IMG/VR virus record: IMGVR_UViG_3300020173_000591
Location: 1 to 20,057 of that record
DNA from: a virus
Direction: 5' to 3' (one strand)
Length of the DNA stretch: 20,057 nucleotides
This document shows positions 1 to 12,090 of this stretch, piece by piece. Made by a program: the position numbers and the translations under genes. The notes under the pieces are model-generated. The model worked only from the letters and a program-made list of their open reading frames with translations. It was not told the DNA's origin and did not search any database. Position 1 is the stretch's first letter; every line of letters starts with the position of its first letter.

Positions 1-385
1 CAACACCATTATACTTGTTCAATAGAGAATCGAACTCTGCAACTCTATCTGAACCAACAACCATTACGATTGATTTGTGTCCTTTGTTGTGTAGTGAGAC
101 TGCAATCTCAAACACATTTCTTGCTTTGTCTACAACAATGTTCCGTGAATGTTTTGGGAACATATTCTTCATATATGCAACTTTTTTAGAATACGGTAGT
201 GGATCTTTCTTTGCGTTTTCAGAGTGACTTGCGAACACATAGTAAGGTGCGCCAGGGTTCTTCTTTGCCTGTGTCGCAACAGCTTCTAATAGTTTTTCAT
301 GCCCTGTGGTTGGTGGATTGAATCTACCAAAAGTGAATACACAAGTATCCCCACGAGCCTCTCTAATGTCCTTAAAAGTTTTCAT
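1..385 (-). CDS. Partial HIGH-type nucleotidyltransferase (NMNAT/cytidylyltransferase-like)
   Basis: The 3' part of this gene lies beyond the window; 128 codons are visible, starting at ATG 385. Residues 17-29 read FTFGRFNPPTTGH, the GxFxPxxxGH signature of the nucleotidylyltransferase superfamily, with TTGH in place of HxGH. A later VVGSDR segment also fits that fold. Such enzymes transfer an NMP group from an NTP, for example in NAD, CoA or CDP-alcohol synthesis; the substrate cannot be read here. The start overlaps the stop of the preceding gene in an ATGA junction, so it is the last visible member of a four-gene coupled operon. The N-terminus MKTFKDIREA resembles the T4 internal-protein capsid-targeting peptide with an IRE cleavage site. 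Family call firm, substrate unknown. Confidence 0.8.
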   Translation of the reverse strand, partial: MKTFKDIREARGDTCVFTFGRFNPPTTGHEKLLEAVATQAKKNPGAPYYVFASHSENAKKDPLPYSKKVAYMKNMFPKHSRNIVVDKARNVFEIAVSLHNKGHKSIVMVVGSDRVAEFDSLLNKYNGV

Positions 386-777
386 TGTTCACTACCCAAT
401 TCTCTTGCCTTTTTAAGTCTTTCCAACTCATCCTTCTTTAACTTTATAATAAGTTTTTTTGCAATCTTTTTAATCGCAGCACCCTTCTTAGAAACAATTC
501 TATCATCAAGTGCCTGTCTTTGCATTAAAGGAAGATTTGCATAATCCTGTTTATCCATACCAGCAAACTTTTTAATAATTATCTGTTTCGCAGCTTTGTT
601 TGCTCTCTGTTGAATTTTTGAATTAGTCGCCAACTTCTTTTTTGATCTGGCAATTTTTGCCTGAACAGCAGGGTTCTTCATCATTTTTTTCATTCGCAAA
701 CCCATTTTTCTTCGTTGAGAAACAGACAAAGCTTTTCTCTCAATAAGTTCTAACATTAGGTCGTCAAATGTTTTCAT
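382..777 (-). CDS. Small highly basic protein, possible packaged internal protein
   Basis: 131 residues, very rich in lysine and arginine throughout (for example RRKMGLRMKKMMKN near residues 22-35 and repeated KK pairs to the C-terminus). It is predicted to be helical, with no membrane segment and no enzyme motif that I recognise. It resembles conserved basic hypothetical proteins that I remember from marine T4-like phages. The start ATG at 777 overlaps the upstream stop (ATGA) and the 3' end overlaps the next gene's start in the same way. The N-terminus MKTFDDLMLELIE matches the MKT-aromatic opening of T4 internal proteins and offers an LIE site at residues 11-13. Its basic charge suits a DNA-associated protein carried in the capsid. 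The role is inferred. Confidence 0.75.
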   Translation of the reverse strand: MKTFDDLMLELIERKALSVSQRRKMGLRMKKMMKNPAVQAKIARSKKKLATNSKIQQRANKAAKQIIIKKFAGMDKQDYANLPLMQRQALDDRIVSKKGAAIKKIAKKLIIKLKKDELERLKKARELGSEQ

Positions 778-1067
778 TTCATTAAAGCCTTTGCTGTATC
801 TAACGCCTTCTTTGCATTTGGGTGCTTTGGATTAATATTTACAATATCACCATTTACAAAATCGGAGATATTTGCAGATTTACCAAGAGCCTTTATTGCC
901 TTATGAAGTGGATCTTTTGGATCAAAATTCACTTCAAAATTTGGTTTACCTCTAACTTCTACCCAACTACTCTCACCAGTTTTCCACATCTTCAACACAT
1001 CTTGATTCTTTCCACGAACCAGTTGTAACTTAATACCCTCTTTAAGAAAAAATGAAAGTGGTCTCAT
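774..1067 (-). CDS. Hypothetical 97-aa protein of the cargo-like operon
   Basis: 97 residues with no recognised domain. The N-terminus MRPLSFFLKEG has the aromatic-rich short helix followed by LKE and glycine seen in T4 capsid-targeting peptides. The rest is a mixed alpha/beta sequence with a central segment MWKTGESSWVEVRGKPNF that looks like two beta strands, and a lysine-rich helical C-terminus. The ATG at 1067 overlaps the stop of the DUF6267-like gene and the stop overlaps the next start, so its synthesis is probably coupled to both neighbours. The reading frame is supported by this tight packing. No function can be assigned. Confidence 0.75.
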   Translation of the reverse strand: MRPLSFFLKEGIKLQLVRGKNQDVLKMWKTGESSWVEVRGKPNFEVNFDPKDPLHKAIKALGKSANISDFVNGDIVNINPKHPNAKKALDTAKALMK

Positions 1068-2308
1068 TTATCCCACGCCTTGATTGCAGTAAAGTTATTG
1101 AAACTAAATTCCATTCTATCCACAAGTTTTACTGCATTACCAGAAATTCTATCAATTGCAACATACCCTTCTGGGTTTACAACTTTAAAACCATTTTCAG
1201 TTTTAATAAAAGTTCCAATACTCTTTACAGTATTTAGTTTCTTTACAATACCCATCTTAGCTTCTACGATATGGTTTTGAAACTCAATAATATTAGATAG
1301 GTTTACAATATGTTTCTTTAGTTCACGAACTATTTCTTTTTTATTATTTTCTACTTCTTGTTTTTTAACAGGAGTTTTTAGTTTGCCAATCTTTTTATTA
1401 AACACCTCTTCAACCCAAGAAATATATCCTTGAGCATGTTTCTTTGGATTAGTAATCTTCTGTCCCTTTCTCACCATACTATTATTGTATGTCTTGAGAG
1501 AAGCACCAGAAAAATCACCAGTGAAACTATTTTGAATTGTAAGAAAACCAGTAAGAAGTTGGGAATTAATTTTTCTGAATGTAGAACCAGCCATAGACAA
1601 GTGTGAAGTTACAACTTCTGTTTCTTTTTCAGTCATTGTTGCTTTACCAGAAACATCTTTATAGGTTGCATCGTCCATCCAAACTGTAGATGGTTTCTGC
1701 AATCCTTTGATATTTGCACCAAAAGAGGCCTTCATGTCTTGGAGTGTTTTGCCTGTATATGTGGTGTGCCACACTACACCAATCTTTGCATTATTGATTT
1801 GTTTACCCAATTCTGAGTTCGCATCAACTGCATATACAATTGTGTTTGGTTGGAATGTTAGGAAAGATTTACCATCAATAGTTTCTGTAGAAACATCATC
1901 AGTAAACATCAAGTCACCTTGAAGAACACCTGTGATACCCAACTTAGAAAACTCTGCAAGTGCAATCTTAAACTTAGAGTTCAATGCACCAGACAATCCG
2001 TCTGCATCAATCTCTGCGTTTGACTTGTAAAGTTTTGGTTCTATATTAAATACTGATTTCTTTGCAACAAAGAACCGTCCATCTTCTGGATCAATTCCAG
2101 CAAAGATAGCAGGAGCTCCATCCCACTTTACAGTCATGTTTACAGAAGAACGAGAAGAACCGGCCAACATGTCACGCAAAGACTGAATAAAGTTGATAGC
2201 AGCTCGGCCGCCATCAACTCCGAAATTTAGAATTTCGTCCTCTATGTGTTCTAGGTGTAGGTTTTTCCCACCTTTATCTTCGGTGAGAAAACTTGAAAAT
2301 TTTAACAT
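1064..2308 (-). CDS. DUF6267-like protein; predicted ligase-type nucleotidyltransferase
   Basis: 414 residues. It matches a conserved family of marine T4-like phages that I know as DUF6267, with no function that I know of. I see motifs in the order of ATP-dependent ligases and capping enzymes: KWDG at 61-64 (motif I, candidate nucleotidyl lysine K61), VLQGDLMF at 128-135 (like the xGEL of motif III), FQPNTIVYAV at 152-161 (motif IIIa), PEGYV at 379-383 (motif IV, EGxV) and AVKLVDRMEF at 392-401 (motif V). About 220 residues separate IIIa from IV, much longer than usual, holding a lysine-rich helical stretch near 285-360. The N-terminus MLKFSSFLTED carries an LTE prohead-protease-like site. 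It is first in a four-gene operon behind an early/late promoter pair; its own Shine-Dalgarno is weak. Family membership is from memory; ligase chemistry is inferred. Confidence 0.8.
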   Translation of the reverse strand: MLKFSSFLTEDKGGKNLHLEHIEDEILNFGVDGGRAAINFIQSLRDMLAGSSRSSVNMTVKWDGAPAIFAGIDPEDGRFFVAKKSVFNIEPKLYKSNAEIDADGLSGALNSKFKIALAEFSKLGITGVLQGDLMFTDDVSTETIDGKSFLTFQPNTIVYAVDANSELGKQINNAKIGVVWHTTYTGKTLQDMKASFGANIKGLQKPSTVWMDDATYKDVSGKATMTEKETEVVTSHLSMAGSTFRKINSQLLTGFLTIQNSFTGDFSGASLKTYNNSMVRKGQKITNPKKHAQGYISWVEEVFNKKIGKLKTPVKKQEVENNKKEIVRELKKHIVNLSNIIEFQNHIVEAKMGIVKKLNTVKSIGTFIKTENGFKVVNPEGYVAIDRISGNAVKLVDRMEFSFNNFTAIKAWDK

Positions 2309-10802: not shown

Positions 10803-11017
10803 GAGAAAAGAGGCAATTGTTCCTCTGAACTGAAATGTTTATTAATCATGTCAACCACATCTTGTGCATCGGCAATCTTAATTAGTTCTGCTTCTACAGC
10901 CTCTGCGATATCAGAATGTTCACCAATACCGGCAGGGTTCTTTAGATAGACTGCAATGTTCGCTTTGTGCATTGCAATCTTGCCTTCATTTAGTTTTCTT
11001 ATTGCATCAAGTAGCAT
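10799..11017 (-). CDS. Conserved hypothetical 72-aa protein
   Basis: 72 residues starting at ATG 11017, with GGAG six bases before it; a TTG four codons upstream is not needed. The start overlaps the ATP-grasp stop (TAATG). The product is a short helical protein (LLDAIRKLNEGKIAMHKANI, then a GIGEHSDIAEAVEAEL segment and a C-terminal helix) similar to a small protein that I remember near the polymerase of marine T4-like phages. No catalytic or membrane features are seen. Its stop codon lies within the -35 box of the polymerase promoter. Confidence 0.75.
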   Translation of the reverse strand: MLLDAIRKLNEGKIAMHKANIAVYLKNPAGIGEHSDIAEAVEAELIKIADAQDVVDMINKHFSSEEQLPLFS

Positions 11018-12090
11018 TATATACTCCAATTTTTTCTATTCATAAACATAGACAATATCTCTTTTGTGATACTTCTTTTCTGATCTTTAATTAATGGTTT
11101 TGATGCAGCACTATTAAACACTGCCTCGATACCCATAAGTCCAGGCGTAGAATTTACCTCAATAAGATATGGTTTATCTTTATCTCTGTTCTTGGCGGGA
11201 ATAAAGTCAACTCCGACCATCATTCCGTCCACTGCTTTAGCTGCCCGAATTGATTCTTCTTTTTCTAATTCAGTCAACTCATGTATCTCTGGTTCAGAAC
11301 CTTGAGAAACATTACTTCTAAAGTCACCACCGATAACAGGGCGTTTCATTGCACCCAATATTTGTCCAGCGACAACAATAACTCTAACATCGTAATCTGT
11401 CTTAACATATTCTTGTAGAATGATATCTACATATTCATCTTCTCTATATAGAAGTTGTACAATACTGTGAAGAGATTTTAAACTCTCAATCCACATTACA
11501 CCAACACCTCTAGAACCTGTAGAAGTTTTTAGAATCATAGGAAACTTGTTTCCTAGTTTTTCTGCGGCCGCCTCGGCACCTTCTGCATGTCTTACTAGAA
11601 CTGTTTTGGGGGTATTAAAGTTTTCTCTTTGAAACACAACTTGGTTAAACCATTTGTCTCCACAGATATCGTGGCATCTTGTAGAATTGATTACTGTATA
11701 ACCTTCATGTTCAAGATTATTAATAGTTACCCACCATGAACGGTTTCCAAGTTTTGTTGTAGAACCAAGTCCTCTAGCCATAACTAGAGTGTCTTTTGGA
11801 TTAATCTTAAAAGGTTTTTCGTATTCTGCATCTGACTTCATTGTAGGAAGTTCTGCCTTACCTTCATCATTAACTGCAAAAGAATATACTAGTTTACTGT
11901 CTCCATCAGATTCCATATAAGAACCAGACAACTCAGCAAGATACACTTCAATACCCATTTTAGATGCAATCTTACGAATCATAGGCCCTGTTTCGTTAGG
12001 GTCTAGTGGATCGTCATGCGAAAGGATAAGAAGTTTATACTTCTGTTCTTTTGGTTCTTCTACAATGAAATTTGAAAAAGATTGTGTCAA
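11017..12090 (-). CDS. RimK-type ATP-grasp ligase
   Basis: 357 residues from TTG 12090; AAGAGAGA precedes it by about eight bases and the codon overlaps the regA stop region. ATP-grasp ligases join a carboxylate to an amine through an acyl phosphate. Seen here are a Rossmann-like N-domain (KLLILSHDDP), the central FPMILKTSTGSRGVGVMWI loop (about 184-202) holding the ATP lysine and glycine-rich loop, an ILQEYVKTDYDVRVIVVAGQILGAM segment, and FIPA...YLIEVNSTPG near 297-316 with the metal-binding Glu and Asn. RimK relatives add glutamate to ribosomal protein S6; the target here is unknown. The N-terminus MTQSFSNFIVEE resembles a capsid-targeting peptide, supporting the TTG start. It sits inside the replication operon between regA and the polymerase. 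Confidence 0.88.
   Translation of the reverse strand: MTQSFSNFIVEEPKEQKYKLLILSHDDPLDPNETGPMIRKIASKMGIEVYLAELSGSYMESDGDSKLVYSFAVNDEGKAELPTMKSDAEYEKPFKINPKDTLVMARGLGSTTKLGNRSWWVTINNLEHEGYTVINSTRCHDICGDKWFNQVVFQRENFNTPKTVLVRHAEGAEAAAEKLGNKFPMILKTSTGSRGVGVMWIESLKSLHSIVQLLYREDEYVDIILQEYVKTDYDVRVIVVAGQILGAMKRPVIGGDFRSNVSQGSEPEIHELTELEKEESIRAAKAVDGMMVGVDFIPAKNRDKDKPYLIEVNSTPGLMGIEAVFNSAASKPLIKDQKRSITKEILSMFMNRKNWSI

Follow-up and report, generated by a model that had tools for sequence, protein, structure and literature searches.

DUF6267, a protein family of ocean phages, as a predicted ligase-type nucleotidyltransferase that may travel in the virion

What does a DUF6267 protein do for the phage that encodes it? 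The question is raised by a 20,057-base IMG/VR virus record (IMGVR_UViG_3300020173_000591), analysed over its whole length and called here the window, whose minus strand carries what we take to be a T4-like replication cluster (its gene names being assigned by recognition). On this strand lies a DUF6267 gene of 414 codons and a stop (1064..2308), for which the ORF (open reading frame), Pfam, an alignment and an AlphaFold2 (AF2) model together predict a ligase-type nucleotidyltransferase fold. The protein matches DUF6267 in Pfam (E 2.1e-106, residues 16-409) and phrog_455 in PHROGs. A preliminary description of the window had held that the family is without an assigned function, which is the case in both databases, and had proposed that the protein is a polynucleotide ligase or a nucleotidylating enzyme using K61. 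Conservation and the predicted fold support this proposal; the activity itself is a prediction. Our overall reading, to which we give a probability of roughly 0.72, is that DUF6267 is a virion-linked polynucleotide-sealing enzyme, and very probably a divergent member of the ligase-type nucleotidyltransferases.

The motifs carry the first part of this reading. We aligned homologues from IMG/VR, retrieved with the five queries that yielded loci (up to 80 loci listed per query), together with 11 named phage records; an IMG/VR scan with the Vibrio DUF6267 protein as query gave no relative. A DUF6267 homologue was found at 411 loci, 397 of them with a full-length protein, and the alignment has 159 rows: the window protein and 158 representatives at 90% identity. 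The strings pointed out in the preliminary description, i.e., KWDG (61-64), QGDLMF (130-135), FQPNTIVYAV (152-161), PEGYV (379-383) and AVKLVDR (392-398), all occur in the protein as described. The residues K61, D63, G64, P66, K84, D132, N155, Y159, H181 and T182 are identical in every one of the 159 rows, as are N276, K351, E380, G381, V383, K394, R398, F401, S402, N405 and F406. Conservation of K61, E380 and K394 across homologues had been set beforehand as a test of the proposal, and all three are thus invariant. When 40 rows from genome contigs were added, K61 was kept in 198 of 199 rows, D132 and H181 in 199 of 199, and E380 and K394 in 197 each, with two gaps each; among these added rows, members of about 26% identity still keep the catalytic residues. 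Because the motif residues are identical in 159/159 rows, the match to the ligase motifs goes beyond chance.

In the predicted structure, motifs I, III, IIIa, IV and V fall at or within strands. The AF2 model of the window protein (model 1) was built from 97 sequences and has a predicted local distance difference test score (pLDDT) of 89.2 and a predicted template modelling score of 0.85, with residues 1-16 below pLDDT 50. Motif I (KWDG, 2117..2128, on the minus strand like all features of the gene) holds the putative nucleotidylated Lys61 at the end of strand 57-61. From its position, AKKSVF (82-87, 2048..2065), with invariant K84 and F87, is a candidate motif Ia. Motif III (QGDLMF, 1904..1921) has its invariant D132 within strand 128-135, and its acid is Asp, not Glu. 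From alignment and model, we assign PNTIVY (154-159, 1832..1849; invariant N155 and Y159) to the motif III region. The preliminary description had put motif IIIa at 152-161; a better candidate is IGVVWHTTYT (176-185, 1754..1783), a model strand with the invariant H181 and T182. In motif IV (PEGYV, 1160..1174), invariant E380 and G381 stand at the start of strand 381-385, and in motif V (AVKLVDR, 1115..1135; invariant K394 and R398) K394 lies in strand 392-396. The insert that had been noticed ahead of motif IV is real: between motifs IIIa and IV the model has helices over residues 227-359 (1232..1630), a segment that is shorter in a natural class of 298 residues, and the invariant N276 and K351 within it suggest a contact with substrate or phosphate. 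One conserved motif stands outside the ligase set, HLEHIED near the N-terminus (residues 18-24, 2237..2257), where H18 and H21 are kept in 158/159 rows and D24 in 159/159; we know of no ligase counterpart of this HxxHxED motif.

The fold comparison that the preliminary description had called for was made with two models, and both resemble the covalent nucleotidyltransferase superfamily. Model 2 is of a 298-residue cyanophage-type member, about 28% identical to the window protein (45 sequences, pLDDT 90.2); the two are not independent, as its 45-row alignment sits entirely inside the 97-row alignment of model 1. When the models were compared with the PDB using VIA-align, 48 of the 50 matches listed for model 1 were ligases (RNA ligases fill ranks 1-24, and the two exceptions are sensor domains), as were all 50 of those listed for model 2, although many rows are mutants of a few same proteins. 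In these counts, chains of rows 42, 45 and 50 of model 1, which carry names of non-homologous end-joining complexes, were taken as DNA ligase IV. The best row among the matches listed for model 1 is 6vt3 (Z 8.2, root-mean-square deviation (rmsd) 3.6, 184 aligned); model 2 has 6vt0 (Z 8.3, rmsd 3.9, 173 aligned) and T4 Rnl1, 2c5u (rmsd 3.6, 155 aligned). The VIA-align lists re-examine Foldseek's own candidates, and unlisted capping enzymes may match too. In Foldseek itself, ranks 1-11 of model 2 on the PDB are ligases or a capping enzyme (E 0.046 to 0.16); the top rows of model 1 are unrelated, with the ligases 1xdn and 1b04 only at ranks 31 and 36. The models give moderate support to an adenylation-domain fold.

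Several results weigh against the overall reading; those that touch the ligase are gathered here, those that touch packaging and partners further below. Canonical ligase motif V is KxK, and its second lysine is visible in T4 Rnl1; motif V of DUF6267 (KLVDR) holds a single lysine. Neither model has a Foldseek match in the PDB at E 0.001 or better, and a Z of about 8 is in the VIA-align range typical of models without a clear match. Given these moderate Z values and non-significant Foldseek results, the case for the fold rests on the agreement of the two models, the consistency of the rows and the invariant motifs at strands. Alignment of the DUF6267 profile with the sequences of T4 Rnl1, Rnl2 and gp30 was not significant, and a search of PDB sequences with this profile (hmmsearch) gave ten chance-level hits and no ligase. 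Vibrio phage EniLVp02, furthermore, has a gp30-type ligase and T4-type RNA ligases besides DUF6267. The one-lysine motif V, like the head-targeting-like peptide borne by the class of the window protein (see below), would suit a catalytically dead ligase fold that serves as an end-binding or structural head protein, but the invariance of the catalytic positions across very divergent members makes this very improbable. We conclude from the models and motifs that DUF6267 very probably has the ligase superfamily fold, and we predict that it is probably an active polynucleotide ligase.

Which kind of ligase it resembles most is suggested by comparison with the known ones. T4 Rnl1 (gp63, PF09511) is alike in fold (2c5u, Z 7.1 with model 1 and 8.0 with model 2), and its motif IV-V stretch, IEGYVAVMKDGSHFKIK, resembles PEGYVAIDRISGNAVKLV of DUF6267. 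Unlike T4 Rnl1, which continues for about 130 residues past motif V, DUF6267 has no such long C-terminal part; it has an extra helical insert between motifs IIIa and IV, no Pfam match to the family and no significant alignment. The Naegleria RNA ligase and ligases of the Rnl2/Trypanosoma brucei REL1 type (PF09414) provide top VIA-align rows (6vt3, Z 8.2; 1xdn, 8.0; 2hvq, 6.9) but differ in their accessory domains, are 8-14% identical in the alignments and have no PF09414 match in DUF6267. ATP-dependent DNA ligases (PF01068, T4 gp30) have the adenylation-domain fold in common with DUF6267 (rows from Z 6.4 with model 1), and their motifs I, III, IIIa, IV and V come in the same succession; they differ in that DUF6267 has no PF01068 match and is too short to hold a C-terminal OB domain with motif VI, since the chain stops at residue 414, 16 residues after motif V, its last modelled element being the helix 398-407. 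The preliminary description had spoken of a full set of motifs: its five strings are there, but the protein lacks the second lysine of motif V and a stretch long enough for an OB domain with motif VI. Ligase families are absent from the Pfam matches of the window protein at E <=1: the five families listed are DUF6267 and four unrelated weak matches, with none of PF01068, PF09511 (Rnl1) or PF09414 (Rnl2) among them. A phmmer search with the protein gave two chance-level hits. As far as the models go, RNA is favoured over DNA as the likely substrate, both by the ligases matched in the fold comparison and by the lack of an OB domain.

The distribution of the family bears on a different role. DUF6267 corresponds to T4-GC71 and has relatives in 466 phage records (E 0.01), and in 451 of these the name refers to Synechococcus, Prochlorococcus or "cyanophage"; the other carriers include pelagiphage HTVC008M, Stenotrophomonas phage DLP6 and Vibrio phages, and the nearest named relative of the window protein is that of Methylophilales phage Melnitz (75% identity). 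A scan of genome contigs gave 41 loci, which we read as phage contigs: 40 belong, to go by their titles, to metagenome-assembled genomes (MAGs), to one binned assembly or (judged by strain name) to one single-cell genome, and the remaining one is a 188-kb contig of a Nonlabens xiamenensis isolate. A literature search for DUF6267 found no paper. PF01068 occurs in 3 of 12 reference records (T4, DLP6 and Vibrio EniLVp02) and in none of the nine others (six cyanophages, HTVC008M, Melnitz and C48C1), and PF01653 in 0 of 13. DUF6267 might therefore be the replicative DNA ligase that seems to be missing from T4-like cyanophages and related phages, standing in for gp30 beside gp41, a role that overlaps with a polynucleotide-sealing enzyme, so that the confidences given to the two are not exclusive. 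The gene does lie near the gp41 helicase/UvsX cluster, and a review (PMC2984593) states that g30 homologues were not found in cyanomyoviruses and that distant ones may have gone unrecognised. The same review holds it more probable that these phages have no ligase and use the host's; PMC10665884 lists a ligase among the replication genes of cyanophage S-CREM2, and a tRNA ligase is noted in 2 of 16 cyanophages in a table of PMC3037559. Moreover, the chain is too short for an OB domain, RNA ligases give the best fold rows (though the gaps in Z are small), a head-targeting N-terminus is ill-suited to a part of the replisome, and both DLP6 and Vibrio EniLVp02 hold a PF01068 ligase together with DUF6267. 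We consider a replicative role unlikely. A simple replacement of gp30 was set aside, as DLP6 and Vibrio carry both; DUF6267 may yet act as a DNA ligase in the nine records free of PF01068.

The second part of the reading, that this sealing enzyme is linked to the virion, comes from its N-terminus. Positions 4, 7, 8 and 10 of the T4 capsid targeting sequence are reported to matter in the portion of PMC9026906 that treats it. In the T4 record, IPII and IPIII both start with MKTYQEFIAE, and the first ten residues of the window protein, MLKFSSFLTE (2279..2308), follow the same pattern, with an L-x-E site ending at residue 10. We formulated a strict pattern (positions 4 and 7 aromatic, position 8 L or I, position 10 E; ATG starts, ORFs of at least 50 residues), which the window peptide fits. 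In stretches of T4 (58-78 and 99-148 kb) it retrieves 2 of 549 starts, ipII and ipIII, both known internal proteins; in DLP6 (1-160 kb) 2 of 1791, DUF6267 and one antisense ORF; and in the window 4 of 222, i.e., DUF6267, the genes at 774-1067 and 382-777, and one internal methionine. Within the family (9 of 411 rows were dropped because the match begins after query residue 20 or the protein has <=270 residues), the strict pattern is found in 75/82 DLP6-like and 50/80 Melnitz-like proteins. Counted as distinct peptides, 56/62 DLP6-like, 28/51 Melnitz-like and 0/21 peptides of the cyanophage classes match. The 59 distinct DLP6-like peptides that start with M have L/I at position 8 in 59, E at 10 in 57, F/L at 4 in 57 and F/Y at 7 in 54, with positions 2, 3, 5, 6 and 9 variable. 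Other ORFs at DUF6267 loci give 165 hits, all on the strand of DUF6267 and none antisense, a count that includes two internal DUF6267 methionines (L015, L024), probably more internal ones, and 67 hits that are essentially one gene across related cyanophages. The gp21-type prohead protease family PF03420, which would cleave such peptides, is present in 13 of 13 reference records including T4 (the window is a 20-kb fragment). The likeness to IPII and IPIII extends to the first ten residues and, in relatives, to the presence of a gp21-type protease; it ends at the cargo, which here is much larger, enzyme-like and packaged by prediction from sequence.

The peptide could still be a chance match, or a conserved leader unrelated to capsid targeting. 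The pattern is short, and when it was moved off register (shifts of 1-6, same 2562 starts) each shift had between 0 and 4 hits, compared with 8 in register, so that single hits can be chance; the strict pattern also misses T4 ipI and alt. It is failed by 30/80 Melnitz-like and 7/82 DLP6-like DUF6267 N-termini, and the peptide is seen in 0/239 cyanophage DUF6267 proteins and not in the one Vibrio protein. A literature search for the virion proteome of a phage with the peptide on DUF6267 found none, and the DUF6267 protein S-SZBM1_141 goes unmentioned in the text of PMC9146016. Packaging is therefore not a property of the whole family. However, the window peptide agrees with IPIII at 4, 7, 8 and 10 with the positions between them varying, the neighbouring peptides are on one strand only (165 vs 0), and a similar peptide starts nucleotidyltransferases found in virions, which together make a chance leader quite improbable. 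Because DUF6267 in this phage lineage begins with what looks like a T4-type capsid targeting sequence, we predict that it is probably packaged in the head.

The nucleotidyltransferase in question is the usual neighbour of DUF6267, a HIGH-type enzyme annotated as cytidylyltransferase (T4-GC190, phrog_395), with a separate fold and, except in fusions, a separate gene. A relaxed pattern fits its start at 73/73 and 79/79 loci of two cyanophage classes (152/152), in which the peptide is on the nucleotidyltransferase and not on DUF6267, at 63/69 Melnitz-like loci, and at 2/26 loci of the DLP6-like class, whose DUF6267 has the peptide; the background is 24 of 2457 ATG starts. These nucleotidyltransferase counts, like those from genome contigs, are raised by a preference for start codons that fit the pattern, which leaves the family counts for DUF6267 unaffected. 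The virion proteomes of S-SM1 (in part of PMC3037559) and S-SZBM1 (in part of PMC9146016) include the linked nucleotidyltransferase, which in both phages follows DUF6267 and starts with MKKFSAFLNE and MRFRQFIIE, respectively. A cytidylyltransferase is listed for the S-CREM2 virion as well, known by name only (a table of PMC10665884); S-CREM2 is not among the 12 matches listed of 92, nor among 60 of 517, that could have placed it beside DUF6267, and in its relative S-CRM01 the nucleotidyltransferase is about 4 kb from DUF6267, not adjacent. Also in that table (Table 3) of virion proteins are a SAM hydrolase and an entry called CRISPR-Cas9 nuclease. In S-PM2, the nucleotidyltransferase follows DUF6267 in the same chain, which has no targeting peptide, and a section of PMC3037559 reports the cytidylyltransferase as undetected in the virion; this fits with targeting by the peptide, as one case in which non-detection is weak evidence. 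In the S-PM2 genome (L084 5992-7771, NC_006820) DUF6267 is split over two ORFs, the second running into the cytidyltransferase; in a 591-residue BFVD entry of S-PM2 it is unbroken.

The partnership is not universal. Downstream HIGH-type nucleotidyltransferases are absent from the S-SKS1-like class (L333-L412; 0/80 loci, 63 of them with at least 1.2 kb), and in S-SM2 and ACG-2014f the gene is some 80-100 kb from DUF6267. The nucleotidyltransferase is found in 517 phage records (E 1e-10), more than DUF6267 (466, E 0.01), and has relatives in Pseudomonas, Klebsiella, Escherichia and Salmonella phages, those listed being near 290-350 kb. In HTVC008M an ORF between DUF6267 and the nucleotidyltransferase (L088 7742-8404) has a P-loop-like GGPGSGKT and begins with MIPFILKEG.

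A HIGH-type neighbour raises the possibility that DUF6267 nucleotidylates a protein or a small molecule, or caps RNA, instead of sealing polynucleotides. Known members of the HIGH-type class act on small molecules. The enzyme is fused or adjacent to DUF6267, and its sole PDB profile match is NadR (E 0.039); in addition, the superfamily includes capping enzymes, motif V (KLVDR) is atypical, and injected T4 Alt is described in a section of PMC9503650 as modifying host proteins. Set against this, the fold rows are nearly all polynucleotide ligases, with one capping enzyme in Foldseek ranks 1-11 of model 2, and the nuclease-like third region described next favours nucleic acid. We regard such a role as improbable and retain a polynucleotide-sealing enzyme.

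The third region appears in fusions. Four divergent chains of 930-955 residues (L454-L457) consist of DUF6267, then a HIGH domain, then a PD-(D/E)xK-like region; the titles of their MAGs are Tenericutes, Firmicutes (one bin, with two of the contigs) and Methanobrevibacter (goat ileum), and the contigs are probably phage-derived. In the three scanned against Pfam, DUF6267 is above its cut-off and CTP_transf_like below, and for two a PHROGs scan gave matches to cytidyltransferase families (E 1e-34 or better). The C-terminal region has the invariant residues E126, G140-D141 and E150-V151-K152 in the four sequences. A PDB profile search with it gave nothing convincing, so that the PD-(D/E)xK reading rests on these residues and on a loose D...[ES]xK regular expression, which is matched by upstream ORFs of at least 200 residues in five classes (40/51, 54/61, 69/70, 70/70 and 1/1) against 20/158 control ORFs; the upstream ORFs are not independent, since they group into only 20 BLAST families, of which two, with 159 and 50 loci, are large. 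This PD-(D/E)xK-like part is the least certain of the three.

T4-like phages may carry a virion-delivered machine that cuts, modifies and seals, in which a PD-(D/E)xK-like nuclease would be joined by a HIGH-type nucleotidyltransferase and by a ligase of a new RNA/DNA-sealing family. Its genes would be mostly side by side in marine phages, with a two-part chain in S-PM2 and a three-part chain in the four MAG contigs; the split forms would reach the head through a peptide on the ligase, the nucleotidyltransferase or both, be injected, and mend or edit the ends of nucleic acids ahead of phage gene expression. This remains a tentative and rather doubtful proposal, its odds having been lowered a little because the fused chains (L454-L457) do not fit the targeting pattern and the window has no upstream nuclease-like gene: between gp41 and DUF6267 it has a 111-residue ORF only.

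Downstream of DUF6267 in the window, on the minus strand, are a 97-residue protein that starts with MRPLSFFLKE (774..1067) and a 131-residue protein that starts with MKTFDDLMLE (382..777; phrog_23027, E 4.5e-11), both with capsid-targeting-like N-termini, followed by the start of a HIGH-type nucleotidyltransferase (GRFNPPTTGH; 2..385, 128 codons), which runs off the contig end and whose N-terminus, MKTFKDIREA, has I-x-E and fits the relaxed pattern only. Farther along, a TTG-start ORF (11017-12090, minus strand), which we take by recognition to be RimK/ATP-grasp-like, has a capsid-targeting-sequence-like N-terminus, MTQSFSNFIVEE. At other loci (L182 3396-3998, L218 3453-3998, L242 2863-3705), variable genes just upstream of DUF6267 have a targeting-like peptide; they look like genes for HAD phosphatases, for an HD-domain protein and for a zeta-toxin-like kinase. 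In a Pfam scan of ten peptide-bearing or neighbouring proteins, three gave informative matches: those to HD_4 and Zeta_toxin pass the family cut-offs, and one to an acid-phosphatase HAD family falls short of its own. The HAD-like gene recurs at four loci. These peptide-bearing variable neighbours recall the T-even internal proteins, described as variable and defence-related in a part of PMC3012670.

Going beyond the preliminary description, the targeting-like peptide and the linked nucleotidyltransferase change the biological picture. DUF6267 is usually beside the HIGH-type nucleotidyltransferase, and many relatives, though not that of the window, have an upstream PD-(D/E)xK-like protein. In the mechanism that we propose, the T4-type targeting sequence would direct DUF6267 into the prohead, where a gp21-type protease would cut after E10; injected with the genome, the protein would then work on ends of RNA or DNA while phage genes are not yet expressed. 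K61 would take a nucleoside monophosphate from a nucleoside triphosphate and transfer it to the 5' end of a polynucleotide or, with lower likelihood, to a protein; the helical insert would stand in for an OB domain as a clamp or lid on the substrate. It may work with the nucleotidyltransferase, and perhaps the nuclease-like protein, on ends present at the start of infection, candidates being host tRNAs cut by anticodon nucleases or the entering phage DNA. PMC9503650 reviews RNA repair by phages and enzymes that are delivered with the virion. For DUF6267, we infer an early role in anti-defence or repair.

The targeting-like peptide, and a frequent partner that has been seen in virions, raise the interest of the family, with the activity and the packaging of DUF6267 standing as predictions. 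A family that is common in ocean viruses of bacteria, and to which Pfam and PHROGs assign no function, gains a candidate enzyme role. The assignment is relevant to a gap noted in print, that cyanomyoviruses seem to have no DNA ligase (PMC2984593), and makes it testable. If it is true, the nucleotidyltransferase, whose role in the cyanophage virions that contain it is not clear, gains a possible partner and a delivery route, and a virion-delivered ligase could be at work before the infection is halted by host defences that cleave tRNA or DNA.

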